DNA of 53,245 nt, from the IMG/VR virus record IMGVR_UViG_3300032246_001650, positions 1 through 53,245 of that record; one strand, 5' to 3'. Below the pieces are notes generated by a model. That model saw nothing but the letters and a program-made list of their open reading frames with translations. It did no database searches and was not told the origin of the DNA. Made by a program: the position numbers and the translations under genes. Within the stretch, counting starts at the first letter, position 1. Each line of letters opens with the position of its first letter. The stretch is from a virus. Shown here piece by piece: positions 9,118-34,733 of the stretch.

Positions 9118-9152
9118 GGGTTTGGCTATCCAAACCCTTCTTGTTATATTTA
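9118..9152 (+). promoter_or_regulatory. Terminator-promoter hybrid
   Basis: GGGTTTGG (9118-9125) and CCAAACCC (9130-9137) form an 8-bp hairpin with a CTAT loop, followed by T-rich sequence. The same bases supply TTTGGC (9121) and TGTTATATTTA (9142) of the phage promoter, 21 nt apart. It would end NAMPT-operon transcripts and start the CCA-enzyme transcript. Confidence 0.7.
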
Positions 9153-9175
9153 TCTCATAATAAGAAATAAAAGTT

Positions 9176-9898
9176 ATGCCAAGAATTTATAAAGTAGGTG
9201 GTTGTGTTAGAGATAGATTATTAGGGATTGAATCTAAAGACATTGATTTTACATTTGTAGTTGATGATGTAAAAATGAGTGTTGATGATGGTTTCGTTTC
9301 AATGTACAAGTATTTGTCTGATGAAGGATTTACTATTTTCTTATCAACACCTGAATGTTTTACTATTAGAGCTAAGTTTCCTATGAACCACCCAAATGAA
9401 GGTATGGTAGCTGATTTTGTATTAGCTCGTAAAGAAGTAGGATATGTTGAAGGCACTAGGAGACCAATTTTAGAATTAGGTACTTTAGAAGATGATTTAA
9501 GACGTAGAGACTTTACCTTAAATGCTTTAGCTGAAGATGAAGATGGAAACATTATAGATTTGTTTGGTGGAATTGAAGATTTGAAACGTGGTTATTTAAG
9601 AACTCCACTACCATGTACTGATACTTTTAATGATGATCCACTTAGAATTTTAAGAGCAATTCGTTTTTGTATTACTAAAGGATTTTGGATTGGACCAGCA
9701 ATGGATGGCATTATTCAAGATTATGATTATGAAACTAAAATGCATGTAGTGTCTATGCAGCGTATTAGAGAAGAATTGTATAAGTGTTTCAAACATGATA
9801 CTCTAAAAACACTTAAAACACTACATGAGTATCCAGCATTGAGAAATTATATTTTCCAATCATGTGAGTTGTGGTTGAAGCCAACTTTTGAACAATAG
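9176..9898 (+). CDS. cca: CCA-adding enzyme / tRNA nucleotidyltransferase (class II)
   Basis: 240 aa, shorter than bacterial enzymes (about 400) but complete through the catalytic and neck regions: VGGCVRDRLLG (7-17), metal-binding DIDF (22-25), RRRDFTLNALA (about 109-119) and DPLRILRAIRF (about 147-157), RIREEL. It adds or repairs the 3' CCA of tRNAs. The tRNA genes at 38.9-45.3 kb do not encode CCA, so they need this activity from phage or host. The tail and body domains are reduced. Confidence 0.9.
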   Translation: MPRIYKVGGCVRDRLLGIESKDIDFTFVVDDVKMSVDDGFVSMYKYLSDEGFTIFLSTPECFTIRAKFPMNHPNEGMVADFVLARKEVGYVEGTRRPILELGTLEDDLRRRDFTLNALAEDEDGNIIDLFGGIEDLKRGYLRTPLPCTDTFNDDPLRILRAIRFCITKGFWIGPAMDGIIQDYDYETKMHVVSMQRIREELYKCFKHDTLKTLKTLHEYPALRNYIFQSCELWLKPTFEQ

Positions 9899-9899
9899 G

Positions 9900-9932
9900 T
9901 TTGGCTTCATCACCCTCAAATGTTATATTAAT
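9900..9932 (+). promoter_or_regulatory. Phage promoter
   Basis: TTTGGC at 9900 and TGTTATATTAA at 9921; serves the phosphoesterase gene. Confidence 0.75.
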
Positions 9933-9945
9933 ATAAATAAGAGTT

Positions 9946-10605
9946 ATGAAAATCGTATTAGAAAAAGGACAAAGATTATTTTTTACTAGTGATACTCATT
10001 ATGGTCACTCTAATATTTGTAGTGGTACTACAAAATGGGTTGGCGCTGAAAATATGACTCGTAAATTCAGTTCATTAGATAGAATGAATGATGAATTAGT
10101 ATTTTGGATTAATCAAAGAGTAGGTGAGAATGATATTTTATTTCATTTAGGTGATTGGTCATTTGGTGGGTTTGAAAATATTGAAGAATTCAGAAACCGT
10201 ATAGTATGTAAGAACATTCATTTGGTACTCGGTAACCATGACCATCATATTGAGCGTAATAAAGACGGTATACAACGTTTATTTTCATCAGTAAACCATT
10301 ATGTTGAATTAGATGTTAGACGTCCATCTGAATTTGCTAAAGGTAGAATGGATAAGTTTAACTTTGTTTTAATGCATTACCCAATCGCTAGTTGGAACAA
10401 TATGAATAGTGGAGTAATGCATTTACATGGTCACGTTCATTTACCTCCACACCAAAGAATTGCTGAAGGTAGAGCAATGGATGTAGGTGTAGATGGTAAT
10501 GGTTTAGAGCCTATTAGTTTGAATGAAGTTTATGCCTTACTTAATGATAGACCAATTGACAAACTTTGCCTTCCTCGTGACCATCATGTTAAAAGGTTAA
10601 ATTAA
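9946..10605 (+). CDS. Calcineurin-like metallophosphoesterase
   Basis: 219 aa with the full motif order: FFTSDTHYGH (D-x-H, about 14-22), FHLGDWSFGG (GDxxxxG), LVLGNHDHH (GNHD), MHYP and GHVHLPP (GHxH). The HEG-like start DTHYGHSNI is typical of phage phosphoesterases. Such enzymes hydrolyse phosphomonoesters, diesters or 2',3'-cyclic phosphates. Placement between the CCA enzyme and the kinase/ligase genes hints at an RNA-end function, which is inference. Confidence 0.88.
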   Translation: MKIVLEKGQRLFFTSDTHYGHSNICSGTTKWVGAENMTRKFSSLDRMNDELVFWINQRVGENDILFHLGDWSFGGFENIEEFRNRIVCKNIHLVLGNHDHHIERNKDGIQRLFSSVNHYVELDVRRPSEFAKGRMDKFNFVLMHYPIASWNNMNSGVMHLHGHVHLPPHQRIAEGRAMDVGVDGNGLEPISLNEVYALLNDRPIDKLCLPRDHHVKRLN

Positions 10606-10615
10606 TTGATATTTA

Positions 10616-10714
10616 TTACCGAATGCCGGGTCGCAGCGGTAATAATTTATTAAAAAAACTAAATACCCAAGCGTAAGTAAGGAACTGCGACCCTGAAAGC
10701 GTCTTGGGTTTTTT
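10616..10714 (+). ncRNA. Structured RNA with predicted kissing loop, ending in an intrinsic terminator
   Basis: Hairpin 1 is TTACCG (10616-10621) with CGGTAA (10637-10642); its 15-nt loop contains GGGTCGCAG (10628-10636). Hairpin 2 is ACCCAAG (10665-10671) with CTTGGGT (10703-10709), followed by six T; its loop contains CTGCGACCC (10685-10693), a perfect 9-nt complement of the hairpin 1 loop. This can be a kissing-loop/pseudoknot RNA or two alternative folds controlling the terminator. No known riboswitch class was recognised. It lies between the phosphoesterase and an HNH gene. Confidence 0.7.
10665..10714 (+). terminator. Intrinsic terminator
   Basis: ACCCAAG/CTTGGGT stem (7 bp) with a long loop, then TTTTTT at 10709-10714. 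It is the 3' part of the kissing-loop element. The HNH gene starts 5 nt later with no visible promoter of its own. Confidence 0.65.
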
Positions 10715-10718
10715 ATTT

Positions 10719-11282
10719 ATGAAAAAATGTAGTAAATGTCAAGTTGAGAAATCTTTATCTGAATTTAAAGGAAAAAGTTATTATTGTACCCCATGTAATC
10801 AAGAATATAGGAAACAATACAGAATTAATAACCCTTCATATATGAAAGAGTATTTTATATCTAATAGAGATAAAATTACTATCAAAGAAAAAGAATGGAG
10901 GGAAAACAATAAAGACAGATTTAATACATATCATAATAGTTATCATAAAGAAAGAAGAAAAAACCCTTTACATAAATTACATAAATTTATAGCAAGTGGA
11001 ATTTATCGAGGTATAAAATTTGGAAGTAAAGACACCACCAGCTTAGAAATTTTAGGATTAAACTCATGGGAAGAATTTAAAATATATCTTGAGAACCAAT
11101 TTGTTGAAAACATGAGTTGGAATAATTATGGGAAAGGTAATAACAATAACGTATGGCATATTGATCATATTATCCCTATTAGTTCGGCAACTACCTTAGA
11201 AGAAATAAAAAAATTAAATCATTATACTAATTTAAAACCAATGTGGTGTAGTGATAATATAAGAAAAGGAAATAAATTCTAA
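10719..11282 (+). CDS. HNH homing endonuclease
   Basis: 187 aa. The N-terminal zinc finger CSKCQVEKSLSEFKGKSYYCTPC is common in phage HNH enzymes; basic linker follows; the HNH core is near the C-terminus (WHIDHIIPISS, then NLKPMWCSDNIRKGNK). The start at 10719 is preferred over an ATG 15 nt upstream that lies in the terminator T-run. Free-standing, probably mobile; no split gene is apparent next to it. Confidence 0.88.
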   Translation: MKKCSKCQVEKSLSEFKGKSYYCTPCNQEYRKQYRINNPSYMKEYFISNRDKITIKEKEWRENNKDRFNTYHNSYHKERRKNPLHKLHKFIASGIYRGIKFGSKDTTSLEILGLNSWEEFKIYLENQFVENMSWNNYGKGNNNNVWHIDHIIPISSATTLEEIKKLNHYTNLKPMWCSDNIRKGNKF

Positions 11283-11290
11283 AAAACAGA

Positions 11291-11322
11291 TTTGGCTTTT
11301 TAAAAAATAAATATTATATTAA
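11291..11322 (+). promoter_or_regulatory. Phage promoter
   Basis: TTTGGC at 11291, TATTATATTAA at 11312; leads to the AGAGTTATG start at 11337. Confidence 0.7.
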
Positions 11323-11336
11323 TATAAATAAGAGTT

Positions 11337-11546
11337 ATGAAAGCACATTTAAAAACAATAGGAATATTAACAGCAATGGTATTATTTATTTACATTGGGT
11401 TTTTATTTCCAAAAGTAATAGCAGCATTGGGGGCATTGATTGCTTTAACAGCAGTATACTTAATAATTTATCTTTATATAAAAGATAATGATGATGAAGA
11501 TGAATTATCAGGTCCATTTAATGCTGGCGGAAGGGAAAGAGACTAA
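11337..11546 (+). CDS. Two-pass membrane protein, 69 aa (paralogue pair, first)
   Basis: MKAHLKTIGILTAMVLFIYIGF then a second hydrophobic stretch, ending in an acidic/Gly tail. The N-terminal pattern MKxHLK and the spacing of the two segments match the next gene, so the two look like a tandem duplication. Function unknown. Confidence 0.65.
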   Translation: MKAHLKTIGILTAMVLFIYIGFLFPKVIAALGALIALTAVYLIIYLYIKDNDDEDELSGPFNAGGRERD

Positions 11547-11547
11547 T

Positions 11548-11718
11548 ATGAAAAATCATTTAAAAGCAATAATAGCATGTTTGTTAATTTTAGGATTTAT
11601 TTACTGTGCTGTTATATACACAATATTAACCTTAACAATTGTAGTATGTACATTTATAGGGATAATGTTTTATGGTTTTGTTTATGAATGGGTAAATGAT
11701 ACTAGGGGAGATGATTAA
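11548..11718 (+). CDS. Two-pass membrane protein, 56 aa (paralogue pair, second)
   Basis: Starts 1 nt after the previous stop with MKNHLKAIIACLLILGFIY, parallel to its neighbour. A longer in-frame start upstream would lie inside the previous gene. Two hydrophobic segments. Function unknown. Confidence 0.6.
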   Translation: MKNHLKAIIACLLILGFIYCAVIYTILTLTIVVCTFIGIMFYGFVYEWVNDTRGDD

Positions 11719-11719
11719 T

Positions 11720-12118
11720 ATGAAAACACTTATAATTTTAAGAGGATTACCAGGTTCAGGTAAGTCAACATTAGCTAAAATGTTAGTTGGTGATAAAGAA
11801 TATCGCCACAAAGAAGCTGACATGTATTTTATTGATGGGGAAGATAATTATAAATTTGAACCTTCAAAAATAAAGGATGCTCATAAATGGTGCCAAGAAG
11901 AAGTTGATTTTCTTATGAAATACTCACATTCCCCTGTTGTAGTATCAAATACATTCACTCAAGAATGGGAAATGGAAGTATATTATAAATTAGCTGAACA
12001 ATATGGTTATAGAGTTCATTCATTGATAGTGGAGAATAGACATAAAGGTATTAATGAACATAATGTGTCTGATGAGACTATGGAAAAAATGAGAAAAAGA
12101 TTTGAGATTAAATTATGA
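11720..12118 (+). CDS. P-loop kinase, polynucleotide-kinase-like
   Basis: 132 aa. Walker A GLPGSGKST at residues 9-17; EADMYF and FIDGEDNYKF resemble the substrate-side DxD/E region; NRHKGINEHNV near the C-terminus matches the lid motif of T4-Pnkp/NEDD4BP2-like kinases. These enzymes phosphorylate 5'-OH polynucleotide ends. An RNA ligase follows 1.4 kb downstream, so a 5'-end healing role is likely. The start is 1 nt after the previous stop. It could also act on another small substrate. Confidence 0.78.
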   Translation: MKTLIILRGLPGSGKSTLAKMLVGDKEYRHKEADMYFIDGEDNYKFEPSKIKDAHKWCQEEVDFLMKYSHSPVVVSNTFTQEWEMEVYYKLAEQYGYRVHSLIVENRHKGINEHNVSDETMEKMRKRFEIKL

Positions 12119-12291
12119 CACCAAAAGAAAAAGCAGAAGAGCTATTTGACAATTTCTTTAATTTATACCCAAACCAAGATGCTTATTTTATTGCCAAGCA
12201 ATGTGCATTGATTGCAGTTGATGAGATAATAAAAATACTACCTCACCCTGATTATTGGCAAGAAGTAAAACAAGAAATAGAAAAATTATGA
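12115..12291 (+). CDS. Small conserved phage-type protein, 58 aa
   Basis: Coupled by ATGA overlaps on both sides. MTPKEKAEELFDNF followed by AKQCALIAVDEII and YWQEVKQEIEKL is a pattern I recognise from many uncharacterised Bacteroidota phage and prophage ORFs. Helical; function unknown. Confidence 0.7.
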   Translation: MTPKEKAEELFDNFFNLYPNQDAYFIAKQCALIAVDEIIKILPHPDYWQEVKQEIEKL

Positions 12292-12554
12292 GCGAAGATT
12301 ATTCACCATATTGTCCTATATGTTCAGGTTGTGGAGAGGATGGGTGTTGTTCAGCAGTACATTGTGAACAACATCCTGATGGTAGTTACTGCCAAACCTA
12401 CCTACAAGATTTAAAACATGCTTACATGATGAATGAATGGTGGTATGAAAATGTTTATGATACTTTATCACCTGAACTAAAAGCTAAATGTGATGAGGAG
12501 TTTGATAAGGCTTATGATTATTGTTACAAAGAGCTTGGCTCCTCAGAACAATAA
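12288..12554 (+). CDS. Cys-rich, probably zinc-binding protein, 88 aa
   Basis: The start ATG overlaps the previous TGA. The N-terminal half has CPICSGCGEDGCCSAVHC, enough ligands for one or two zinc sites; the C-terminal half is helical. The promoter for the next gene lies within its last codons. Not recognised. Confidence 0.6.
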   Translation: MSEDYSPYCPICSGCGEDGCCSAVHCEQHPDGSYCQTYLQDLKHAYMMNEWWYENVYDTLSPELKAKCDEEFDKAYDYCYKELGSSEQ

Positions 12555-12565
12555 TGTTATATTTA
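12534..12565 (+). promoter_or_regulatory. Phage promoter overlapping a coding end
   Basis: CTTGGC at 12534 and TGTTATATTTA at 12555; the -33 box is inside the preceding CDS. Confidence 0.65.
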
Positions 12566-12581
12566 ATGTATAATAAAAGTT

Positions 12582-12842
12582 ATGAAAAAGATATTATTAG
12601 TACTAAGCATTGTAGCATTAGTTTCATGTAACAAACGAGGTGAAACGTATTACGAACCTCAAGATTTTATTGAAATAAATGGTAAAGTTTACAAACTTGT
12701 AAGTGTTGTACCTGCAGATAACTGTCATCCTATTTGGATAATGTATCCAAAAGACACAGCAGAAAAAATGCCTACAGTGTTAAACTATGAAGTACAAGAA
12801 GGTAAAACAACCAGAAACCAATCACTAATTAAAATTGATTAA
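12582..12842 (+). CDS. Small lipoprotein, 86 aa
   Basis: Signal peptide MKKILLVLSIVALVSC with lipobox LVSC (Cys16), so it is lipidated and probably envelope-located. The mature part is about 70 residues with no known domain. Envelope lipoproteins of phages sometimes act in superinfection exclusion; this is only a possibility here. Confidence 0.7.
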   Translation: MKKILLVLSIVALVSCNKRGETYYEPQDFIEINGKVYKLVSVVPADNCHPIWIMYPKDTAEKMPTVLNYEVQEGKTTRNQSLIKID

Positions 12843-12848
12843 CAAGGT

Positions 12849-12941
12849 ATGGAAAATCAAAACAGCTGTTGCTTTATAGCAAGAATAGGAGAAGTTAAAC
12901 CAATTGAAGGAGCAGATTTTGAAATTCCGCAATATTTATAG
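12849..12941 (+). pseudogene. Orphan N-terminal fragment of the RNA ligase gene
   Basis: 30 codons (MENQNSCCFIARIGEVKPIE...) parallel to the first 25 residues of the intact ligase at 13511 (MENNNSVCFVARINEVKEIQ), then a frame loss and stop. An HNH endonuclease gene lies between the fragment and the intact copy. It is the same arrangement as the ThyA fragment at 2476. Confidence 0.72.
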
Positions 12942-12954
12942 GAAAATAAGAAAT

Positions 12955-13521
12955 ATGAATCCTATAAAAAACGAAATTGGAAATAAATACGGAAAGTTAA
13001 CTGTTATTAAACAAGGAACAACTACTAAAAATGGAACTATAAAATGGTTATGTTCATGTGAATGTGGAAATGAAACTGAAGTTATTGGTTATTCTTTAAG
13101 AAGTGGAATTACTACTTCATGTGGGTGTAATAGAGGAAGAAAAGAAGAATTTGAAGGTTCTCATGTTTATAAAAGATCATATGGAATATTAAAAAGATCA
13201 TCTAAACAAAATAATAGAACTTTAGAATTATCTTTTGAAGAATGGAAGAAAATTGTACAACAAAATTGTTATTATTGTGGTTCTGATCCTTATAATAAAC
13301 GTTATGCTTATAGTAGTAAAAGATATAATAAGGGTATAGAACAAGATAATATAGAAATTTTTAATGGAGTAGATAGAATAGATTCATCTAAAGGTTATAC
13401 TAAAGAAAATGTAGTATCATGTTGTGTAATGTGTAATAGAATGAAATCAGATTTCAATCAACAAGATTTTTTTAAACAAATTAAATTAATTTATAATAAT
13501 ATATTAAATAATGGAAAATAA
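12955..13521 (+). CDS. HNH homing endonuclease
   Basis: 188 aa. The N-terminal part (IGNKYGKLTVIKQG, then CSCECGNETEV and TTSCGC) is the DNA-binding module typical of phage HNH/AP2-like endonucleases. The core has CYYCG, GVDRIDSSKGYTKENVVSCCVMCN as the HNH region. The ATG at 12955 gives the canonical N-terminus; a longer frame overlaps the fragment. It overlaps the ligase gene by 11 nt. Confidence 0.88.
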   Translation: MNPIKNEIGNKYGKLTVIKQGTTTKNGTIKWLCSCECGNETEVIGYSLRSGITTSCGCNRGRKEEFEGSHVYKRSYGILKRSSKQNNRTLELSFEEWKKIVQQNCYYCGSDPYNKRYAYSSKRYNKGIEQDNIEIFNGVDRIDSSKGYTKENVVSCCVMCNRMKSDFNQQDFFKQIKLIYNNILNNGK

Positions 13522-14689
13522 TAACTCAGTGTGTTTTGTAGCACGTATTAATGAAGTAAAAGAGATTCAAGGAGCAGACAATATCGAATTAGGTGTTATT
13601 GGAGGCTGGAATTGTATTATCAAGAAAGGTAGTTATAAAGTAGATGATTTAGTTATTGTAGCAACTACCGATGCTGTGATTCCTCAAGAATTATCAGATG
13701 CAATGAACGTAACTAATTACTTACGTAAAGGTCAACGTGTACGTACTGTTAAGTTGAGAGGTGTTTATTCTGAATGTTTAATCATTCCTATTGGTTTTAT
13801 TCCTGACAAATATCGTTATGAAGGAGCTGATTGTATGGAGTTGATGAATATCTTCAAATACGAACCACCAGCAGTTCAAGTACAATTAGCATCAGGTCGT
13901 AAAATGAAATACCACCAAAATCCTAACTTTGGTATTTACTATAAGTTCCCAAACATTAAAAATGTTAATGGAATGTTTAATGAAACTGATGAAGTAGAGG
14001 TAACACGTAAAATACACGGCACCAATAGCCGTTACGGTATTGTTAAAAAACGTAAGTTATCTATTTGGGATAAAGTAAGACGTTTCTTTGGAGACAAATG
14101 GGTTGAGTATGAGTATGTTTATGGTTCACATAATGTAGAAAAAGGATCTGATTCACAAGGTTTCTATGATACAGATGTATGGAGAACAGTAGCTGAAAAA
14201 TACCAAATCAGAGAACAATTATGGGACTTATTTAAACGATACAAAGAATACTACGGTATTGAAGAAGGAATTGTTATCTATGGAGAAATTTATGGCCCAG
14301 GTATTCAAAAGAACTATGATTATGGTTTGAAAGAAATTAAATTTGCTGGATTTGATGTTACTATTAATGGTGATTATTGTAGTGTTGGTAAACGTCTTGA
14401 TATTATTAAAAATGTTATGCAATTACCTCATGTACCTATTTTGTATGGAGGTTTATGGTCACAAGAAATACAAGATAAATTTGTGTTTAATAACTTTATT
14501 GAAGTACAAGAACTAACCATCACAGATTTTAGGGAAGAAAATATAGTAGGTGTTTTAAAAACAACTAAAGTACCTCATGAAGGAATTGTTATTAAAGCAC
14601 TTGATGGTAGTAGAAAGAAAGTAGCAAAAGTAATTAATCCGGACTACTTAATCTACGGAGAAAAACACAACGTAGGAGATTCACACTAA
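13511..14689 (+). CDS. RNA ligase (DRB0094/Rnl5-like) with N-terminal OB-type domain
   Basis: 392 aa. Nucleotidyltransferase motif I KIHGTN at 167-172 (Lys167 is the adenylation site), motif III/IIIa EEGIVIYGEIYGPGIQ near 251-266, motif IV HEGIVIKA near 361 and a motif V lysine in KVAKVI. The first 110 residues (CFVARINEVKEIQGADNIE) resemble the OB/tRNA-binding-like domain seen before some ligase cores. It would seal nicked RNA, and with the kinase, CCA enzyme and receiver-like protein forms a candidate tRNA-repair set. Confidence 0.88.
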   Translation: MENNNSVCFVARINEVKEIQGADNIELGVIGGWNCIIKKGSYKVDDLVIVATTDAVIPQELSDAMNVTNYLRKGQRVRTVKLRGVYSECLIIPIGFIPDKYRYEGADCMELMNIFKYEPPAVQVQLASGRKMKYHQNPNFGIYYKFPNIKNVNGMFNETDEVEVTRKIHGTNSRYGIVKKRKLSIWDKVRRFFGDKWVEYEYVYGSHNVEKGSDSQGFYDTDVWRTVAEKYQIREQLWDLFKRYKEYYGIEEGIVIYGEIYGPGIQKNYDYGLKEIKFAGFDVTINGDYCSVGKRLDIIKNVMQLPHVPILYGGLWSQEIQDKFVFNNFIEVQELTITDFREENIVGVLKTTKVPHEGIVIKALDGSRKKVAKVINPDYLIYGEKHNVGDSH

Positions 14690-14712
14690 AATATAAAAAA
14701 CATTTGAAGAAG

Positions 14713-14747
14713 GGGCTTGGCTTTGCCAAGCCCTTTTGTTATATTTA
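14713..14747 (+). promoter_or_regulatory. Terminator-promoter hybrid
   Basis: GGGCTTGGC (14713-14721) pairs perfectly with GCCAAGCCC (14725-14733) around a TTT loop and is followed by TTTT; the same segment continues as TGTTATATTTA at 14737. Ends the ligase transcript and starts the next. Confidence 0.75.
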
Positions 14748-14765
14748 ATGTATAATAAAAATAAG

Positions 14766-15377
14766 ATGATCGATAATTTAGAACTAATTAAACCGTTACT
14801 TAACTTTGAAGATAAAGGTGACTTTTATATGCTTTATGTATTAAAACGTAAAAAAGATCAACCTGAAGGTGAAAAAGATAATCATCAATCAGTAAGAACT
14901 ATTCGCACTTATTGTATTCGTTCAATTGAACAGTTAGAGAAACGTTATGATGAAATTAAAATGATGTGTGAAATGTTTAAAGCAAGAGCTTATATTCATG
15001 TTCAAAAACAAAATCATAGAGACGTTTCATTAAATATGATGATTGCTTTAGCTCAACGTATTCAAGATGGTAATTTAGAACAACAATCATTATTTGATTC
15101 AGTAGTAGGTCAATTAAAAACATTAGAGAAAAGATGGATTGTTGATGTTGATATGAAAGATATGGAAGTGGTTATGAAAATTGCAAAATTAATTTATCAT
15201 TTACGACCTGAAGGTCCTAAAGTTGAGACAATTATTCCTACTAAAAATGGTTATCATTTAATCACTAATAGGTTTGATGTAAAGGAGTTTAATAAGATTA
15301 TGTCATTACAAGGTGATGTACCTGATATAGTTAAAAAGAATCCTACTCTTCTTTATTTACCATCTAGTTTAGATTAA
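14766..15377 (+). CDS. Conserved phage-type protein, 203 aa, function unknown
   Basis: The ATG at 14766 follows the leader; an ATG 30 nt upstream lies in the promoter region. Helical N-terminal half (SIEQLEKRYDEIKMMCEMF), then WIVDVDMKDMEVVMKIAKLI and IIPTKNGYHLIT...FDVKEF, KNPTLLYLP. The VDVD and TKNGYHLIT blocks recall primase-like (AEP) phage proteins, but I cannot confirm that. Confidence 0.65.
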   Translation: MIDNLELIKPLLNFEDKGDFYMLYVLKRKKDQPEGEKDNHQSVRTIRTYCIRSIEQLEKRYDEIKMMCEMFKARAYIHVQKQNHRDVSLNMMIALAQRIQDGNLEQQSLFDSVVGQLKTLEKRWIVDVDMKDMEVVMKIAKLIYHLRPEGPKVETIIPTKNGYHLITNRFDVKEFNKIMSLQGDVPDIVKKNPTLLYLPSSLD

Positions 15378-15394
15378 CTGATATTTGAAAAGTA

Positions 15395-15425
15395 AATTTT
15401 AATTTCCTAAAAATTCATATATTTA
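15395..15425 (+). promoter_or_regulatory. Weak promoter-like site
   Basis: TCATATATTTA at 15415 with only T-rich sequence in the -33 position; may express the endonuclease gene. Confidence 0.3.
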
Positions 15426-15441
15426 TAATAAAATATAGAAT

Positions 15442-16221: not shown

Positions 16222-16228
16222 AAACAAA

Positions 16229-16260
16229 TTTGGCTTTTTAAAAAACTATTCGTATATTTA
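16229..16260 (+). promoter_or_regulatory. Phage promoter
   Basis: TTTGGC at 16229 and TCGTATATTTA at 16250; AGAGTTATG start follows at 16283. Confidence 0.7.
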
Positions 16261-16282
16261 AGTATAATAAAAAATAAGAGTT

Positions 16283-17211: not shown

Positions 17212-17243
17212 GCTTGGGAAACTAAGTTTTTTTGTTATATTAA
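17212..17243 (+). promoter_or_regulatory. Terminator-promoter hybrid
   Basis: CTTGG-GAAA-CTAAG hairpin (about 17213-17226, one G-T pair) followed by seven T that run into TGTTATATTAA. The -33 box is only CTTGGG, so promoter strength is uncertain. Confidence 0.55.
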
Positions 17244-19537: not shown

Positions 19538-19573
19538 GAGGCTTGGTTATCCAGGCCTCTTTTGTTATATTAA
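19538..19573 (+). promoter_or_regulatory. Terminator-promoter hybrid, leaderless
   Basis: GAGGCTTGG (19538-19546) pairs with CCAGGCCTC (19551-19559, one G-T pair) around TTAT, then TTTT and TGTTATATTAA. The next ATG (19579) follows the -7 box within about 8 nt. Confidence 0.75.
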
Positions 19574-25398: not shown

Positions 25399-25430
25399 TT
25401 TGGCTCTCCGCGCCTGGGATGTTATATTAA
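25399..25430 (+). promoter_or_regulatory. Phage promoter, leaderless
   Basis: TTTGGC at 25399 and TGTTATATTAA at 25420; ATG at 25435. Confidence 0.75.
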
Positions 25431-27629: not shown

Positions 27630-27671
27630 ACAAATAACAATCAATAGATTTATAATATACGGAGGTAACAA

Positions 27672-27929: not shown

Positions 27930-28186
27930 AACTATACACAGAAGAAGAAGTAAAGCAAATGCTAATCAAAACAGATATGTTCACACCACTGCATATTGAC
28001 CATATTATGAATGAAACAACACCCATTGAACTACCAAGTGATGAGGATATAGAATCAGAGGCAAGATTTTATGAAAATTATAATGAATGTATGGATGAAT
28101 TAGAATCTGAAATAGCATCAGGAAGATATGGGTTTGTAGATGGTGCAAAATGGATGCGTGATAAAATACAAGGAGGTAACAAATAA
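27926..28186 (+). CDS. Acidic hypothetical protein, 86 aa
   Basis: MKLYTEEEVKQMLIKTDMFTPLHIDHIMNETTPIELPSDEDIE...GFVDGAKWMRDKIQGGNK; GAKWMRDKIQGG is a recurrent C-terminal block of Bacteroidota phage ORFs. SD-like GGAGGT at its end. Function unknown. Confidence 0.65.
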   Translation: MKLYTEEEVKQMLIKTDMFTPLHIDHIMNETTPIELPSDEDIESEARFYENYNECMDELESEIASGRYGFVDGAKWMRDKIQGGNK

Positions 28187-28452
28187 TGGAAATATTTTTT
28201 TTAGGATTAGGAGTAGTTGTAGCAATGGGAATGGTTACAATTGGTTATGCTACAAAAAGACAAGACGGTAATTCAACTGCAGTTGTGTTTAGCATAGGTT
28301 TAGCTTTACTTTTCTTTAGTTTGCTTGGATTAGGAATTTGTCTTGGTAATCTTCCACATGTGGTGAAAAAGAAAATTGAGCCTACTGTTAGGGTAGAATG
28401 TGTTAACGGTACATGTGATACAATTTACATGTATGAATTTAAAGAAGATTAA
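28186..28452 (+). CDS. Two-pass membrane protein, 88 aa
   Basis: Shares one base with the previous stop. Hydrophobic segments at about 2-22 and 33-55, then a C-terminal domain with Cys pair (VRVECVNGTCDTIYM). Function unknown. Confidence 0.6.
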   Translation: MEIFFLGLGVVVAMGMVTIGYATKRQDGNSTAVVFSIGLALLFFSLLGLGICLGNLPHVVKKKIEPTVRVECVNGTCDTIYMYEFKED

Positions 28453-28460
28453 ACCTCTTG

Positions 28461-28492
28461 TTTGGCCTTCCAAATTCAGGATGTTATATTTA
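28461..28492 (+). promoter_or_regulatory. Phage promoter
   Basis: TTTGGC at 28461, TGTTATATTTA at 28482, AACCTCTTG just upstream. Confidence 0.75.
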
Positions 28493-28516
28493 CCGAGTAA
28501 TAAAGGTTATAAAATC

Positions 28517-28690
28517 ATGAAAAAAGAAGAAATTTTAGAAAGTTTAGAATCACTTAAAAAAATGTTAAACAAAATGTTAGTTGAAGGTGAAGCTAAAGGT
28601 AAAGAAGTTAGCGTCGCTTACGAATGTGGTATCTACATAGGAACTATTAAAGCTACAATTAACGAACTAGAAAATATTTTAGGAAAATAA
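28517..28690 (+). CDS. Small helical protein, 57 aa
   Basis: KKEEILESLESLKKMLNKMLVEGEAKG then YECGIYIGTIKATINELENIL. The start at 28517 follows the promoter; a longer frame would cross it. Function unknown. Confidence 0.6.
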   Translation: MKKEEILESLESLKKMLNKMLVEGEAKGKEVSVAYECGIYIGTIKATINELENILGK

Positions 28691-28697
28691 AATATAT

Positions 28698-28789
28698 AGT
28701 CAGGTGTCGGCAGTCCTATCTATCGGGGTTCGAATCCCACTAGAAACGGTGATAGAACGGATAACAGGTTCGAGTCCTGTCCTGACTAC
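28698..28789 (+). ncRNA. tRNA-like element d (rearranged centre)
   Basis: Acceptor AGTCAGG/CCTGACT and T arm ACAGG-TTCGAGT-CCTGT are intact. The D arm is lost and the centre contains a second T-arm-like piece, GGGG-TTCGAAT-CCC, enclosed by CTATC/GATAG. It cannot decode in this form. A CDS starts 14 nt after its end. Confidence 0.6.
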
Positions 28790-28802
28790 AAAAATAAAGA
28801 TT

Positions 28803-28988
28803 ATGATAAAACATATTAAACGTTTTTTATTTTCATTTACTAAAGAAGGAATTGAACAACAGAGAGTCCAAATGTTACAACAAAATTGTAAACATGAAAG
28901 ATGGAATATGGATAAACAAATTAGAACGATAGAATGTAAATCCTGTGGTTTAAGAGCATGGGTTGATGATTATACCAATCTATATTAA
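28803..28988 (+). CDS. Small zinc-ribbon-like protein, 61 aa
   Basis: Basic N-terminal helix; CKHERWNMDKQIRTIECKSCG has two Cys/His pairs that fit a zinc ribbon. AGATTATG start just after tRNA-like d, and tRNA-like e follows 9 nt after its stop. Confidence 0.6.
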   Translation: MIKHIKRFLFSFTKEGIEQQRVQMLQQNCKHERWNMDKQIRTIECKSCGLRAWVDDYTNLY

Positions 28989-28997
28989 AATAAAAAT

Positions 28998-29083
28998 AGT
29001 CAGGTGGCGGAATTGGTAGACGCAGTAGGGAGAGCCAAAGAGGTATCTACGAAAGTTATAGGTTCGAATCCTGTCCTGACTAC
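28998..29083 (+). ncRNA. tRNA-like element e
   Basis: Acceptor AGTCAGG/CCTGACT, D arm GCGGAATTGGTAGACGC and T arm ATAGG-TTCGAAT-CCTGT look like tRNA-Leu. The centre (29025-29057) has no canonical anticodon stem; GTAG/CTAC can pair over a long loop. Confidence 0.6.
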
Positions 29084-29101
29084 AAAATGAAGCCTCTCCT
29101 G

Positions 29102-29133
29102 TTTGGCTTCCGTATATCCAGATGTTATATTTA
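29102..29133 (+). promoter_or_regulatory. Phage promoter
   Basis: TTTGGC at 29102, TGTTATATTTA at 29123; near-copy of the 16901 promoter. Confidence 0.75.
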
Positions 29134-29156
29134 CCGTATAATAAGAAATAAAGGTT

Positions 29157-29780
29157 ATGTATAGAATTAATGAAAATTTAAGCAAAGAAGAAAATTTAGA
29201 GTTAGCTAAAGCTTACCAAGAACAAGCCAAAGATATCGTAGAACGATTTGATGCTATTGTAAAAGAAGCTAATAAGTTTTGCCCCGGAAATACTTATGGA
29301 TTAAGTAAATCACAATTAGTTAAACACCAATCACCAACTGAAACTAGAAATAGATTATCTAATTGTGTTACTGCTGAATGGTATGTTAAATCTGTTTTTT
29401 CAAACAGAGAAAGGGAAGCCAAAGAAAAAGCCGAAAAGGAAGTCGCTATTGAACGCACCAAAAAATTGGAAGCCGAAAAATCACAGTTGCTAAACGAAGC
29501 TATTGCATTTTGTTTAGGCAACGGTAAGTTGTTTGGAACTGATTTCATTGTTGAAAATGCCATCCAAGTAGCTAATGACATTGCTTTCCAAGCTAAAATT
29601 AAATTACGCAACGAGGAAATCGGAGATGGTTACATTGGCTTTAGTGGCCAAAACTGTGAAGATGAATGTGCAGGATGGAATCCACAAGACAGAAGATGTG
29701 AATGTGGTAACAGAAGAGTATCTTGGACTAATGAATATTCTGATTTTAGGAACATGGAAATTTATGCTGAAGCTTGGTAA
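29157..29780 (+). CDS. Hypothetical coiled-coil protein with Cys-rich tail, 207 aa
   Basis: N-terminus MYRINENLSKE is shared with the 16960 gene. Long charged coiled coil (REREAKEKAEKEVAIERTKKLEAEKSQ, about 80-120), then a C-terminal segment with CEDECAGWNPQDRRCECGNRRVSW, a likely zinc site. Unnamed, but this coiled coil plus CxWxGxxRRCxCGxRR ending is familiar in phage ORFs. Confidence 0.7.
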   Translation: MYRINENLSKEENLELAKAYQEQAKDIVERFDAIVKEANKFCPGNTYGLSKSQLVKHQSPTETRNRLSNCVTAEWYVKSVFSNREREAKEKAEKEVAIERTKKLEAEKSQLLNEAIAFCLGNGKLFGTDFIVENAIQVANDIAFQAKIKLRNEEIGDGYIGFSGQNCEDECAGWNPQDRRCECGNRRVSWTNEYSDFRNMEIYAEAW

Positions 29781-29784
29781 GGGG

Positions 29785-29816
29785 TTTGGCTTTACCAAGT
29801 TCGGATGTTATATTTA
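29785..29816 (+). promoter_or_regulatory. Phage promoter
   Basis: TTTGGC at 29785, TGTTATATTTA at 29806. Confidence 0.75.
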
Positions 29817-29839
29817 CCGTATAATAAGAAATAAAGATT

Positions 29840-30025
29840 ATGACAAGAGTTAGTGTAATTATTAAAAGCCACTTAAATGATGCAATGGTTGAAATGGATT
29901 CTAATCCAATTTTAGCACAAAAACGTTTACGTTTTGTAAAGTATTTGGTTCATATGTTTCCTGACACCAATACTAGAATTGATGAGGATATTGTTTATCA
30001 ACAATTTAAATTAGGAGATAAATAA
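29840..30025 (+). CDS. Small helical protein, 61 aa
   Basis: MTRVSVIIKSHLNDAMVEMDSNPILAQKRLRFVKYLVHM; AGATTATG start. Function unknown. Confidence 0.55.
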   Translation: MTRVSVIIKSHLNDAMVEMDSNPILAQKRLRFVKYLVHMFPDTNTRIDEDIVYQQFKLGDK

Positions 30026-30026
30026 T

Positions 30027-30362
30027 ATGAAAGATTTTATACTATTTGAAGAAGCATTAGAGTTAAAGCAACTTGGATTTGACGAACCTTGTTTTACTGT
30101 CTACAACAATAGTAATTTAGTTAATTGGTGGGAAGACGCTGAACCTGTAAATAATAGTCAAATAGTTGAAGGATTTATCACAGCACCAACCTACTCACAA
30201 GCATTTAGATGGTTTAGAGAGAAGTACGATTTATTTATAAGCATTTTCCATTATGAAAATGGTTACTCTATAAACGATTTAAGAAGATTTGATACCTACG
30301 AAGAAGCAGAACTTGCTTGTCTCAAGAAGTTAATTGAAATAGTAAAAGAAAATGCAAACTGA
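30027..30362 (+). CDS. Conserved Bacteroidota phage-type protein, 111 aa
   Basis: EEALELKQLGFDEPCFTVYNN, APTYSQAFRWFREKYDLF and TYEEAELACLKKLIEIVK are a pattern I recognise from many Bacteroidota phage and prophage ORFs without function. Overlaps the next gene by 11 nt. Confidence 0.75.
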   Translation: MKDFILFEEALELKQLGFDEPCFTVYNNSNLVNWWEDAEPVNNSQIVEGFITAPTYSQAFRWFREKYDLFISIFHYENGYSINDLRRFDTYEEAELACLKKLIEIVKENAN

Positions 30363-30624
30363 TCTAATCACCTTAGATGATGAGATGTATCAACAGCTTA
30401 AATCCATGTGGCAAAGCAAGGATGATGGTGATAAGGCCTTATTTAAAGGTATTATTGTAAATCAACTTAACCATAAGGATCTACTAACAGAATATTATGC
30501 TCATTTATTAGTTGGTGTTATACACCCATCATTAACAAACCAAGAACATTGGATTATGAAAAGATTTAATTTACAAATGAAATTATGGAGCCAAGGAATT
30601 ACACCCAAGACGCTATCAATATAA
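30352..30624 (+). CDS. Hypothetical protein with SxDxxxxxLxxxII unit, 90 aa
   Basis: LDDEMYQQLKSMWQSKDDGDKALFKGIIVNQLNHKDLLTEYY. This helical unit recurs at 30882, in the middle of the 33593 protein and at 36120. Function unknown. Confidence 0.6.
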   Translation: MQTDLITLDDEMYQQLKSMWQSKDDGDKALFKGIIVNQLNHKDLLTEYYAHLLVGVIHPSLTNQEHWIMKRFNLQMKLWSQGITPKTLSI

Positions 30625-30782
30625 TTAAAAAATGCCCCCAATGTATGGCATCTGTTAAACAAAAACCATGTGATGACTATCAAGCGCGGTTTGGAGCGTT
30701 TATACGCGTTAGACATGGTATTATAACCACTAACTTGATTGATTGGGCAACTGTGGCGCAAACCATAAACTCTCAATTATAA
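30585..30782 (+). CDS. Small protein, 65 aa
   Basis: Overlaps the previous gene by 40 nt. CPQCMASVKQKPC could bind zinc. The overlap and lack of a strong start signal lower confidence. Confidence 0.4.
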   Translation: MEPRNYTQDAINIIKKCPQCMASVKQKPCDDYQARFGAFIRVRHGIITTNLIDWATVAQTINSQL

Positions 30783-30881
30783 ACAAATATAGTAAATATT
30801 TGGTTAGTTTCAATAGACGGTATATGTGGTATATGTGTATATACGGATAGATAGATAATAGTAGGGCAAGCAAACTTTGCA

Positions 30882-31178
30882 ATGGATAAAGGATTAGTTA
30901 TAGATGCAACAATGTGGGCTCAATTAGAAGAAATGTTTTTCTATGGAACTAAAGAAGATGTTCATCTAGCTGTAGGTATTATTGCTGAATGTGAACTTGA
31001 AAGTTTTGGTCCAATAGGATGTTGGTATATGAAACAAATTCATGATTATGTTTTAAGTAGTGAATTTGAAAATGATGTTCATATTTTTATAATTAGGACT
31101 GTCCAATGGCTTAAAGATACAGAAGCTTGGAAGAAGATGCGTAAAGAGGAAGAACTGGTTTGGCCTCCGAGGATGTAG
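30882..31178 (+). CDS. Hypothetical protein with the recurrent helical unit, 98 aa
   Basis: MWAQLEEMFFYGTKEDVHLAVGIIAECELESFGPIGCWYMKQI matches the unit in the 30352, 33593 and 36120 products. The next promoter is embedded in its last codons. Confidence 0.6.
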   Translation: MDKGLVIDATMWAQLEEMFFYGTKEDVHLAVGIIAECELESFGPIGCWYMKQIHDYVLSSEFENDVHIFIIRTVQWLKDTEAWKKMRKEEELVWPPRM

Positions 31179-31190
31179 ATGCTATATTTA
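31159..31190 (+). promoter_or_regulatory. Phage promoter overlapping a coding end
   Basis: TTTGGC at 31159, TGCTATATTTA at 31180. Confidence 0.7.
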
Positions 31191-31214
31191 TGTCATAATA
31201 AAGAAATAAAGGTT

Positions 31215-32030
31215 ATGCAAAACGTAGAAATTAAAAGAAAAAAAGGTCGTCCAAGTACTAAAAATGTAACTTACACTCCATCATTGATCGACTTTTCAAA
31301 AGTAACTAAACTGAATAGATTAGATATCGATCCTAGAATGATGAACACCTTCAAATCAGGATTAAAAATTGATCATTTGATTTCACATGAAGGAGGTATT
31401 CCAGCCGCAACTAACATTATGATGATTGGTGATCCAGGAGTTGGTAAAACAACTGTATTGTTAGATGTTTTAGCATCTGCTCAAAATAAAGGAGCTAAAT
31501 GTTTGTTTATTTCTGGTGAAATGGGTAAAAAACAAATGTTTAAATACACTCAAAGATTCCCACAATTTGGTGTTATTAATACTTTGTTTATGCAAGATTA
31601 TTTAGAGTTCAATACTAAAGATGTTATTGAACAAGTTTTGGATGGTGGTTATGATATCGTTTTGATTGATAGTGCTGCCGAAATTATTGATGGTGTTAGA
31701 GACGATAATAATTGGGATCGTAAAATGGCTGAATCATGGTTAGTTGATGTTTGTTCTAAAAACAATAAAGGCGAAAATAAATCAAAGGCTTATACTTCGT
31801 TTTTATTAATTCAACAAGTTACTAAATCAGGTGTATTTGCCGGTTCTAATAAATTGAAACACTTAACTGATGCAATGGGTGAAATGAGAAGAGAAGCAGA
31901 AAGAGATGGTGGTGCTACTTATATTAATTTCACCAAAAACAGAAATGGTGTTGTAGACACTAAAATGTATTATGAATTGAGTAATAATAAAATTATTTAC
32001 GGTTCTGTAGTAATTAATAAGGAGGCTTAA
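31215..32030 (+). CDS. RecA/KaiC-like ATPase (RadA- or DnaB-type fold)
   Basis: 271 aa from the AGGTTATG start. Walker A GDPGVGKTT at 72-80, then CLFISGEMGKKQMFKYTQRFPQF (RadA-like), Walker B VLIDSAAEIIDG, and sensor-like LLIQQVTKSGVFAGSNKLKHL-DAMGEM. A KKGRPS AT-hook-like patch lies at 9-14. Could be a recombination mediator or helicase-type protein. Family within the RecA superfamily is uncertain. Confidence 0.85.
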   Translation: MQNVEIKRKKGRPSTKNVTYTPSLIDFSKVTKLNRLDIDPRMMNTFKSGLKIDHLISHEGGIPAATNIMMIGDPGVGKTTVLLDVLASAQNKGAKCLFISGEMGKKQMFKYTQRFPQFGVINTLFMQDYLEFNTKDVIEQVLDGGYDIVLIDSAAEIIDGVRDDNNWDRKMAESWLVDVCSKNNKGENKSKAYTSFLLIQQVTKSGVFAGSNKLKHLTDAMGEMRREAERDGGATYINFTKNRNGVVDTKMYYELSNNKIIYGSVVINKEA

Positions 32031-32034
32031 TCTG

Positions 32035-32066
32035 TTTGGCCTCCCAAATTTCCAATGTTATATTTA
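32035..32066 (+). promoter_or_regulatory. Phage promoter
   Basis: TTTGGC at 32035, TGTTATATTTA at 32056. Confidence 0.75.
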
Positions 32067-32082
32067 TGTCATAATAAAGGTT

Positions 32083-32319
32083 ATGAAAAACGATATAAAC
32101 ACTACAATCAAACAATTTTTAAAAATTACTTTCCCTAAACAATTTATTTACTACAACAATCCAAAATCAATCAAAATTCAATTACCAAATTCAATTTCCG
32201 AATCTTTAATTACTTTTTTACAATCTCAAAATATTGAATTTACTTCTACCCAACCCGAATATATTATTAAAAATTTGTTTTATATAAAAAATATGACTCA
32301 AATTGTAATTAAAAAATAA
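32083..32319 (+). CDS. Hypothetical protein, 78 aa
   Basis: MKNDINTTIKQFLKITFPKQFIYYNNPKSIKIQL; Ile/Asn/Lys-rich, alpha/beta. AGGTTATG start. Function unknown. Confidence 0.55.
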   Translation: MKNDINTTIKQFLKITFPKQFIYYNNPKSIKIQLPNSISESLITFLQSQNIEFTSTQPEYIIKNLFYIKNMTQIVIKK

Positions 32320-32352
32320 AACATTATATTAATCAAATAAATAATAAAAGTT

Positions 32353-33528
32353 ATGAGTAAAAAAGATCTTATTTCAATCAACGTAAACGAACTTAAAGAA
32401 TTTTTAGGCCACATTATTTCAAATAATCAATTTTTGCAATCTCAGGGTAAGTCACCTGTTAGTGTAGAGGTTATTGGTGAAAGTGGTATTGGTAAAACAT
32501 CTGCTATTATTCAATTAGCAAAAGAACAAAATTTAAATTTTGTTAAACTAAACTTAGCCCAAATTGAAGAAATTGGTGACTTGGTAGGTTTTCCAATTCG
32601 TCAATTTGAAGTAGAAATGAATAATGAAAAAACTTGGGTTGACGAACATGCTTTTGATGAGTATATGAAACTTGGTTATAATTCAACTGGTTTGAATCGT
32701 ATGAGTTATTGTCCGCCTGAATGGATTTCTGGTAAAGAAGAAGGTGGTATTCTATTATTGGATGACTGGAATAGAGCTGATGTTAGGTTTATTCAAGCTG
32801 TAATGGAACTAATTGATAGACAACAATATATTAGTTGGACATTGCCTAAAAATTGGCATATTATTTTAACTGCCAATCCTGATAATGGAGATTATTTAGT
32901 TAATAGTATCGATAATGCTCAAAAAACTCGATTTATTAGTGTTCAATTAAAATATGATATTGATTGTTGGGCTAAATGGGCTGAGGAGAACCATATTGAT
33001 GGTAGATGTATTAACTTCTTATTAATGCATCCAGAATTAGTTACTACTGAAGTAAATAGTAGAAGTGTATCTATGTTCTTTAATAGTATTTCATCTATTA
33101 AATCGTTTGATGAGAGTTTACCTTTGATTCAGATGATTGGAGAGGGTTCAGTTGGTTCTGAGTTTAGTAGTTTGTTTACTATGTTTATTAATAATAAACT
33201 AGATAAAATGATTACTCCTGAGAATATTATGAAACAGGATGAAAAGTATGTTACTAATACTTTAAAGTCTTTAGTTGGTAAAGATAGTAAATATAGAGCA
33301 GATATTGCATCTACTTTATCTACTAGGATTGTAAACTATTTAGATATTTTTGCTAAGAATAATCATGTTGAGAAAGATATTATTGATAGAATCTCAACTT
33401 TAGTAACTGAGGAAATTTTTACAACCGATATTTGTTATAATATGGTTAAATCTATTTATAATAATAATATGAATAAATTTAAACCTATGATTATGAATAA
33501 AGATTTGGTTAAATATATAATGAAATAA
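32353..33528 (+). CDS. MoxR-type AAA+ ATPase
   Basis: 391 aa. Walker A GESGIGKTS at 42-50; Walker B with GGILLLDDWNRAD at 131-143; sensor 1 HIILTANPDNGDY; arginine/sensor region KTRFISVQL. MoxR ATPases work with VWA-domain partners to remodel or activate protein complexes. A VWA protein lies 1.2 kb downstream, supporting a functional pair. Confidence 0.87.
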   Translation: MSKKDLISINVNELKEFLGHIISNNQFLQSQGKSPVSVEVIGESGIGKTSAIIQLAKEQNLNFVKLNLAQIEEIGDLVGFPIRQFEVEMNNEKTWVDEHAFDEYMKLGYNSTGLNRMSYCPPEWISGKEEGGILLLDDWNRADVRFIQAVMELIDRQQYISWTLPKNWHIILTANPDNGDYLVNSIDNAQKTRFISVQLKYDIDCWAKWAEENHIDGRCINFLLMHPELVTTEVNSRSVSMFFNSISSIKSFDESLPLIQMIGEGSVGSEFSSLFTMFINNKLDKMITPENIMKQDEKYVTNTLKSLVGKDSKYRADIASTLSTRIVNYLDIFAKNNHVEKDIIDRISTLVTEEIFTTDICYNMVKSIYNNNMNKFKPMIMNKDLVKYIMK

Positions 33529-33539
33529 GATCGACATTG

Positions 33540-33575
33540 GGGGTTTGGCTATCCAAATCCCCTTTGTTATATTAA
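33540..33575 (+). promoter_or_regulatory. Terminator-promoter hybrid
   Basis: GGGGTTTGG (33540-33548) pairs with CCAAATCCC (33553-33561, one G-T) around CTAT, followed by TTTG and the box TGTTATATTAA (~33565). Confidence 0.75.
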
Positions 33576-33592
33576 AATAAATAATAAAAGTT

Positions 33593-34696
33593 ATGATAGT
33601 AAAAAATAGTATTTCTCCTAGATTCTCCCGTTATAATAATCATGGGTATTTTTATCTTTCTTATAATGATGTTGATAGTTATAATTTTTATAATGAGGAA
33701 GAGTTAGAATTTCATAAAAATAAATTAGTTACTCTTTTAAATAATGAAGGGAAAGGAACAATAAAAAAAGTTCTTTATGTAGGTAAAGCCTCAAATATTC
33801 CTCGTCATAAAATCAAAGCATTCATTTCAGAGAATAAAATCAAAAAAACATCCTTAATTGAAAGTTCAGATACTGTCATCTTTGATAAAAAAGTTATTAA
33901 AGATGTTTATGATTGGTTTAATAAATCTGTTGAAAAAAAAGTAGCTATTGTGCCTCTTACACAAAAAATAATAGATGGCATGCTTCAAAATAATAAAGAG
34001 TTTGCTCAAACCACCGGTAGAAATAGTAGTACTCCTGATTTGAGAAATAAATTTAAAAATAAAGAAAATGTTGTTATATATGAGCAGGAGTATAATAATC
34101 TTACTTTACAAGCTCAAGCTATTTTTGGTAATTTAAATTGGGAAAATTATTATGAACAATCTAATTACCGTGTTAAAAATTTAAGAGAAATTTATGAAAC
34201 ACTTGAATATTATTTTAAAAATCCCCACGGTAATGTTATTTGGGATGATGTTGTTTTAGATACTCTTAATAATGATGGTATTGATTTAAATGAAGAGTAT
34301 TTAAGTACATTAGATAGTATGTTCAATAGTGGAGATAAAGAACATATTCAATTAGCATTAGAAATGTTAAATAATGTTAATTTAGAAAAACATGGTTTAA
34401 CAGTAGCTCTTCTTTTAAACAAATATAAAGACACTTCAGGACTAAGTAAAAGTAATAGTAGTAATAATGCTTTTAGAACTTTAGATCGTTATTTCTTAAA
34501 TAAAGAAATTGATTGGAGAAGTGATTATAGACATTTTAGTGCTGGTTTATATAAAAACTATTCTAATAATACAGAACAAAAAGAAATAATTGAAAAATTT
34601 GTTTTAGAAAATATTAACACATACTTAAATGACTTTAAAGGAGGAGTTATAAGTATACAAATAGATAATTTTGAAATTAGTTTAAAAAACAAATAA
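33593..34696 (+). CDS. Hypothetical protein, 367 aa
   Basis: Lies between the MoxR and VWA genes. KKVLYVGKASNIPRHKIKAF near residues 62-80 faintly recalls the YIG half of GIY-YIG domains but lacks a matching GIY half. The middle carries the recurrent unit LDSMFNSGDKEHIQLALEMLNNVNLEKHG seen in three other proteins. Probably connected with the ATPase/VWA module, by position only. Confidence 0.65.
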   Translation: MIVKNSISPRFSRYNNHGYFYLSYNDVDSYNFYNEEELEFHKNKLVTLLNNEGKGTIKKVLYVGKASNIPRHKIKAFISENKIKKTSLIESSDTVIFDKKVIKDVYDWFNKSVEKKVAIVPLTQKIIDGMLQNNKEFAQTTGRNSSTPDLRNKFKNKENVVIYEQEYNNLTLQAQAIFGNLNWENYYEQSNYRVKNLREIYETLEYYFKNPHGNVIWDDVVLDTLNNDGIDLNEEYLSTLDSMFNSGDKEHIQLALEMLNNVNLEKHGLTVALLLNKYKDTSGLSKSNSSNNAFRTLDRYFLNKEIDWRSDYRHFSAGLYKNYSNNTEQKEIIEKFVLENINTYLNDFKGGVISIQIDNFEISLKNK

Positions 34697-34702
34697 CAGA
34701 TT

Positions 34703-34733
34703 TGGCCTTTGGGCCATTTTTTGTTATATTAAT
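34703..34733 (+). promoter_or_regulatory. Terminator-promoter hybrid
   Basis: TGGCC (34703-34707) and GGCCA (34712-34716) form a short hairpin followed by six T, which run into TGTTATATTAA at 34722; TTTGGC starts at 34701. Confidence 0.68.

Follow-up and report, generated by a model that had tools for sequence, protein, structure and literature searches.

The IMG/VR virus record IMGVR_UViG_3300032246_001650 was analysed over its 53,245 bases (the window, meaning this whole stretch of DNA), in which nearly all likely genes lie on the + strand and in which six gene junctions carry a terminator-like hairpin that appears to be superimposed on the promoter of the next gene. The genes include those for NAMPT, thymidylate synthase, tRNA nucleotidyltransferase, RNA ligase, an ATPase, and HNH endonucleases, and ARAGORN reports 25 tRNA genes. 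One protein has a C-terminal sorting domain of the Por secretion system, a signal known from Bacteroidota. A megablast search with 25 kb of the window returned nothing similar at the DNA level among phage records, and tblastn against named phages gave distant matches only; 11 of 12 related contigs (100–181 kb) have a gene for a capsid protein of the T4 gp23 type. Because of this capsid protein in the relatives, together with the gene content and the Por sorting domain, the window most probably represents part of the genome of a T4-like phage with a Bacteroidota host.

About 26 promoters that read TTTGGC-N17-TTATATT or nearly so (TTGG-N19-TATATT) were found in the window, all on the + strand and at gene boundaries. 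In the window and its relatives (1.38 Mb in total) the gene strand has 409 copies of TTGG-N19-TATATT and the other strand 9, and neighbouring spacings of the same two boxes occur 3–26 times. The logo of 298 sites reads gTTTGGCyyy...TnTATATTTA, and a weight matrix used at a score of 12 returns 461 forward versus 12 reverse sites. Promoters of the Bacteroidota primary sigma factor have TTTG at -33 and TAnnTTTG at -7. The phage sites have the same -33 TTTG and a spacing that fits the 19–21 nt of that type (TTTG-N20-TATATTTA), with a -7 box that is TATATTTA rather than TATATTTG and occurs in the variants TATCTTTG and TACCTTTG; judged by boxes and spacing the promoter is of the Bacteroidota primary-sigma type, although fusion to a terminator hairpin is no part of that consensus. 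The sites are almost strand-pure in four long relatives, and in one of these (G399), where the capsid gene is at 127 kb, 19 of the 20 precede that gene, so that the sites resemble early or middle promoters. Nine terminator-free promoters (4871, 16901, 25399, 25621, 26471, 28461, 29102, 29785, and 42154) share a spacer, TTTGGC-CTC/CTTCC-...-CCAGGATG-TTATATT, and those at 6212, 11291, 20905, and 43579 have A-rich spacers instead; the two spacer types perhaps mark two promoter classes, differing in another factor or in timing.

A first-pass annotation of the window had proposed that at six sites (9118, 14713, 17212, 19538, 33540, and 34703; elements 1 to 6 in Table 1) the -33 region forms one strand or the centre of a GC-rich hairpin whose T-run opens the -7 box, such that a single segment ends one transcript and starts the next. 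All six are present, with the -33 box in the 5' arm and the 3' arm ending within about 10 nt of TATATT; the form with the box at the centre (GGGAGG-CTTGG-CCTCCC) is seen in relatives. The spacing, given as a constant 21 nt, holds as TTGG-N19-TATATT at five sites and is N18 at 17212, and the T-run runs into a literal TTTTGTTATATT at four sites, with TCTTGTTATATT at 9118 and CTTTGTTATATT at 33540. The hairpins are GC-rich stems with short loops, and by predicted RNA folding energy four are strong (9118, -17.9; 14713, -21.3; 19538, -19.1; 33540, -18.6 kcal/mol) and two weak (17212, -7.9; 34703, -9.3 kcal/mol). Their z-scores are -5.6 (9118), -4.4 (14713), -3.5 (17212), -5.9 (19538), -4.3 (33540), and -2.3 (34703), compared with about 0 at two hairpin-free promoters of the window used as controls. 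By a strict census four of the eight strong terminators in the window are fused, and as most other promoters of the window lack a terminator-like hairpin, fusion is a property of a subset.

Table 1. Fused terminator–promoter elements and comparison features in the window.
Feature	Coordinates	Strand	Description
Fused element 1	9115..9150	+	Hairpin 9115-9140 with TTTGG in the 5' arm; TTGG 9122; T-run; TATATT 9145-9150; between a NAMPT-like gene (stop 9097) and the tRNA nucleotidyltransferase gene (start 9176)
Fused element 2	14709..14745	+	Hairpin 14709-14737; TTGG 14717; T-run; TATATT 14740-14745; RNA ligase gene upstream (stop 14689)
Fused element 3, weak	17212..17241	+	GCTTGG-GAAA-CTAAGT 17212-17227; T-run; TATATT 17236-17241; N18, not N19; immediately 3' of stop codon 17211
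Fused element 4	19538..19571	+	Hairpin 19538-19559; TTGG 19543; TATATT 19566-19571
Fused element 5	33539..33573	+	Hairpin 33539-33562; TTGG 33545; TATATT 33568-33573; ATPase-like gene upstream (stop 33528)
Fused element 6	34701..34730	+	Short stem TGGCC-TTTG-GGCCA 34703-34716; T-run TTTTTT; TATATT 34725-34730; HNH-endonuclease-like gene downstream (34745)
Second register	38886..38911	+	Hairpin ATACGTTCC..GGGAATGTAT then TTTAAGTTTGGC; terminator abuts the -33 box of the next promoter
Possible weak fused element	915..944	+	GGGTTTGGCTTTGTTAAACCTGTTTATTATATT
Ordinary promoter without terminator	25399..25428	+	z-score +0.5; most window sites are of this kind
Stand-alone terminator, no promoter (comparison)	45684..45710	+	Ordinary

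The association of hairpin and promoter exceeds chance. After clustering at 80%, 16 of 205 non-redundant promoters carry a strong hairpin (score of 21 or more), against 1.0 ± 0.9 expected (maximum 4 in 200 trials) from a control in which upstream and downstream halves are swapped between sites, keeping the logos and breaking the pairing. When terminators are taken as the starting point the gene strand has 146 distinct strong ones, compared with 53 on the opposite strand and none in locally shuffled sequence. The 3' stem ends of these 146 fall 0–13 nt before TATATT in 48 cases, 14–20 nt before it in two, 21–40 nt in 11, and 41–100 nt in one, and none ends within 100 nt after TATATT. One form, GGTTTGG-N4,6-CCAAACC-N4,8-TATATT, has 36 matches in IMG/VR contigs (several being near-copies), 35 of them at exactly N19 and the other in part of a contig where such promoters are lacking, whereas 84,980 bacterial genomes yield 16 matches of GGTTTGG..CCAAACC..TATATT with mixed spacing and without the phage-like T-run. 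Likewise, 23 of 33 distinct GGTTTGG..CCAAACCTTTTT terminators in viral contigs are followed by TAnnTT at exactly N19, including the TATCTTTG and TACCTTTG variants, and no GGTTTGG..CCAAACCTTTTT terminator was found in 395 Bacteroidota genomes. Because the N19 matches lie in viral contigs and those in bacterial genomes are scattered or absent, the GGTTTGG form of the element is, by its distribution, a phage feature.

Several observations bear on whether the hairpin acts in RNA or in DNA. Relative to the promoter the stem shifts by about 10 nt, from -39..-15 to -29..-5, and the T-run moves along with it: the 7 nt after the stem contain on average 5.4 T residues, versus 2.6 when hairpin-free promoters are read at matching positions. 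Such a T-run follows directly at nearly all sites and would not be needed by a hairpin that merely protects or processes the 3' end of the upstream mRNA and terminates little. Strong GC stems shortly past stop codons are what a protecting hairpin would also look like, and sequence alone does not separate termination from protection of ends made elsewhere; we consider a 3'-end stabiliser or processing site unlikely all the same. Mismatches within the stems, which were picked by Watson-Crick pairs only, are G-T oppositions in 18 cases and A-C in 3, where base composition predicts about 1.3:1. The first-pass annotation had stated that the arms differ between sites while pairing is kept and had proposed covariance across related phages as a check, which we ran and which bears it out. 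Compensatory stem changes were found: among ten type-A elements of one geometry, 5 of 11 pairs have changed on both sides, and the covariation score is 0.392 compared with 0.236 for shuffled alignments, reached in 0 of 500 shuffles. One covarying pair includes promoter position -24 and changes from T-A to C-G.

The junctions themselves have been rebuilt among relatives. Three differently built hairpins occur behind the ATPase gene: type A has the arms GGGGGTTTGG/CCAAATCCCC, type B is GGGGAGG-CTTGG-CCTCCCC, and type C is GGCCTCTCCGGAGG; most relatives have neither promoter nor terminator at this junction. The junction behind the RNA ligase gene is likewise rebuilt, and at such junctions the promoter and the terminator are often both missing. 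Because the sliding stem with its T-run, the excess of G-U over A-C, the covariation, and the rebuilt junctions all fit a transcribed hairpin followed by a U-run, these comparisons support the reading of the elements as terminators overlaid on promoters, and not as operators or as hairpin promoters of the phage N4 type.

An operator would be a palindrome over the -33 box that binds a repressor or activator, with termination incidental, and -35-box palindromes without T-runs do occur in other phage contigs (e.g. GGTTGACAATTAGTCAACC followed by TATAAT). Such an operator should keep its arms and register, whereas within one genome the arms here vary from site to site in sequence, length, and register, the stem slides by the 10 nt already given, the T-runs track the stem, and both the preference for G-U over A-C and the compensatory changes point to RNA; an operator is thus highly unlikely. 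Even less credible is a hairpin promoter of the kind used by the N4 virion RNA polymerase, in which the enzyme, from the virion or otherwise of the phage, recognises a hairpin extruded from the DNA. The hairpin does overlap the promoter, but this reading calls for one at a fixed place in every promoter, and most promoters with the same boxes have none, its position is variable where present, and the boxes are of the host primary sigma type. Separately, a palindrome GGTTGAC..GTCAACC over the -35 box, with a perfect TATAAT and no T-run, recurs in seven other phage contigs (L183, L190, L198, L206, L213, L221, and L222) and looks, from its sequence, like a shared operator of phage promoters.

Our interpretation, to which we give a probability of roughly 0.8, is that each element combines an intrinsic terminator and a host-type promoter on the same 35–45 bp at junctions of co-directional genes. 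It agrees with the double function proposed in the first-pass annotation and has more support than any of the rival readings. Several points weigh against it. Two of the six window sites (17212 and 34703) have weak hairpins, and the U-tract is interrupted by a G (TTTTGTT), which may reduce efficiency. The T-run comparison uses control sites repeatedly, and clustering at 80% still leaves some dependence among sites from related phages. A strong fused hairpin is present at no more than about 8% of the group's non-redundant promoters, and a palindrome by itself proves nothing, some promoter palindromes without a T-run in other phage contigs probably being operators.

Fused elements recur with sigma70 boxes in cultured jumbo phages, an extension not foreseen by the first-pass annotation. 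A blastn search with the window site 14713 led to Klebsiella jumbo phage K64-1, where the element is GGGGTTGACTTTGGTCAGCCCTTTTGTTATTATATTTG, with TTGACT in the stem, a T-run, and TATTAT at 17 nt. In Klebsiella phage RaK2 (JQ513383, positions 200001-250000) 11 of 36 sigma70-type promoters on the + strand have a strong terminator ending 2–6 nt before the -10 box. Under looser criteria the fused share of the strong terminators is 18 of 58 in RaK2 (150 kb scanned) and 11 of 21 in Sharanji and Munch together (32 kb). The count in 158 kb of E. coli K-12 is 2 of 53, both with poor promoter matches, and there are none among 119 strong terminators in 400 kb of a Bacteroidota chromosome, none among nine in 50 kb of T4, and none among 21 in 147 kb of crAss001, phi14:2, and FCL-2. 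Relatives of the RaK2 element were found in records of Salmonella, Escherichia, Pectobacterium, Vibrio, and other phages (279 records, the weakest being noise); enterococcal records matched at an E-value of 8 and were left out of the cases. The deposited record of Salmonella phage Munch annotates the hairpins as terminators and gives no promoter, and fused elements are present as well in Escherichia phage Sharanji, whose recorded host is E. coli K-12 MG1655, among them those at positions 10004, 13292, 16561, and 19313 of locus L247. A blastn search with the Bacteroidota-type element gave mostly noise; a match that it gave in Agrobacterium phage Atu_ph07 has a terminator and T-run and no evident embedded promoter, and was rejected. 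Because the boxes, the arms, and the host phyla differ, the two phage groups most simply acquired the elements independently, although that both are large T4-like phages weighs against this. Viral contigs of up to 416 kb (L181, L192, L195, L201, L208, and L225) contain what looks like another family of fused elements, GGTTGACnnnnGTCAACCTTTTTATTATATT, again with boxes of a sigma70-like kind.

If the elements work as proposed, polymerase arriving from the upstream gene would transcribe the -33/-35 box together with its complement, and the RNA would fold into the hairpin. The U-run that follows would free the transcript approximately at the -7/-10 box. In double-stranded form this segment of DNA would be a normal promoter, from which the mRNA of the next gene would start a few bases further on, the promoter code being the Bacteroidota type TTTGG/TATATTTA in the window group and TTGAC/TATWAT in RaK2-like phages. 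The outcome would be a compact insulator and relay, by which read-through from upstream is removed and the downstream gene has its own level and timing. We infer from the two sets of signals that termination and initiation would both occur in vivo.

Why the two signals should coincide is a further question, and economy alone is a moderately probable answer: terminator and promoter would be superimposed to save space in short gaps, with no functional coupling. This concerns the reason for the arrangement and is compatible with the double function. The gaps from stop codon to next start at the six sites are indeed about 48–80 nt, and the loose position of the hairpin is expected if each part merely has to work. 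It is consistent with economy, too, that a second register exists, also beyond what had been proposed initially, in which the T-run forms the TTTGG box (Table 1). This register is found as well in L046 (5790), L047 (13866), and L087 (7439), where the T-run enters, or stops just before, the next TTTGG -33 box. Economy does less well with the compact T4, crAss001, phi14:2, and FCL-2 segments, which have no fused sites, and with the strong preference for the -13..0 register over other nearby placements.

Coupling would go further. After intrinsic termination E. coli RNA polymerase mostly stays on the DNA and can re-initiate nearby, and terminators usually lie less than 1000 bp from promoters (Kang et al. 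2020, PMC6978380; Song et al. 2024, PMC11347151). Speculatively, polymerase freed at the U-run of a fused element might stay on the DNA and re-initiate at the embedded promoter, which would be an extreme case of such re-initiation. It is possible, though rather doubtful, that the elements form a polymerase relay, in which host polymerase, kept in place at the -7/-10 box, is handed on by each gene to the next through the early region, a design that two unrelated large-phage groups with different sigma consensus sequences would have reached independently.

Other features of the window concern its tRNA genes and an exported protein. An array of about 20 tRNA genes spans 38965-43398, with small open reading frames and an HNH endonuclease gene among them, and Rfam places a tRNA at 28998-29082 that is absent from the ARAGORN list. 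The RNA ligase gene (13511-14689) and the tRNA nucleotidyltransferase gene (9176-9898) are in the same genome as the array, and their presence alongside it suggests tRNA repair. After the array, 43866-45242 encodes a protein matching phrog_850 (RNA-binding protein) and DUF2828/DUF7788. The open reading frame at 46184-48085 has cohesin and Por secretion-system C-terminal sorting domains, which suggests that its product may be exported through the host type IX system.

Terminators and promoters are normally annotated apart, whereas here one segment would serve as both, repeatedly, in two large-phage groups with different promoter codes. A literature search, which did not cover most subscription journals, found no published description of a terminator–promoter fusion in phages. 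Among known systems the N4 virion RNA polymerase recognises a DNA hairpin itself, at a fixed place; the elements resemble N4 promoters in that a hairpin overlaps a phage promoter and differ in that it is optional and sliding. The closest described arrangement is the inter-operon terminator–promoter overlap of Salmonella tufB-secE, whose interruption, according to the passage in PMC7055797 that cites Brandis, Cao and Hughes (2019), lowers fitness and changes expression. As that passage presents it, the terminator of the upstream unit overlaps the promoter of the co-directional downstream unit, and by sequence the phage elements do the same. In the E. coli tufB-secE gap, however, the hairpin and T-run lie at least about 50 nt upstream of the nearest TATAAT-like boxes, so that the parts are neighbours and not superimposed; the -35 box is outside the stem and the -10 box outside the U-run, and the arrangement is neither from a phage nor repeated through the genome. 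The recycling of RNA polymerase (PMC6978380, PMC11347151) likewise involves a separate terminator and promoter, while in the phage elements their distance is effectively zero, and the T7, T3, and SP6 RNA polymerases do not recycle, whereas the phage elements would use a host-type enzyme. The elements therefore offer, besides compact insulator parts, a natural zero-distance test of the in vivo polymerase recycling raised by those two single-molecule studies, and because they occur in Sharanji, a phage of E. coli K-12 MG1655 according to its record, it can be made without a new organism. The fused design combines known parts in a new arrangement, and its reach is wider than was first proposed for this window.

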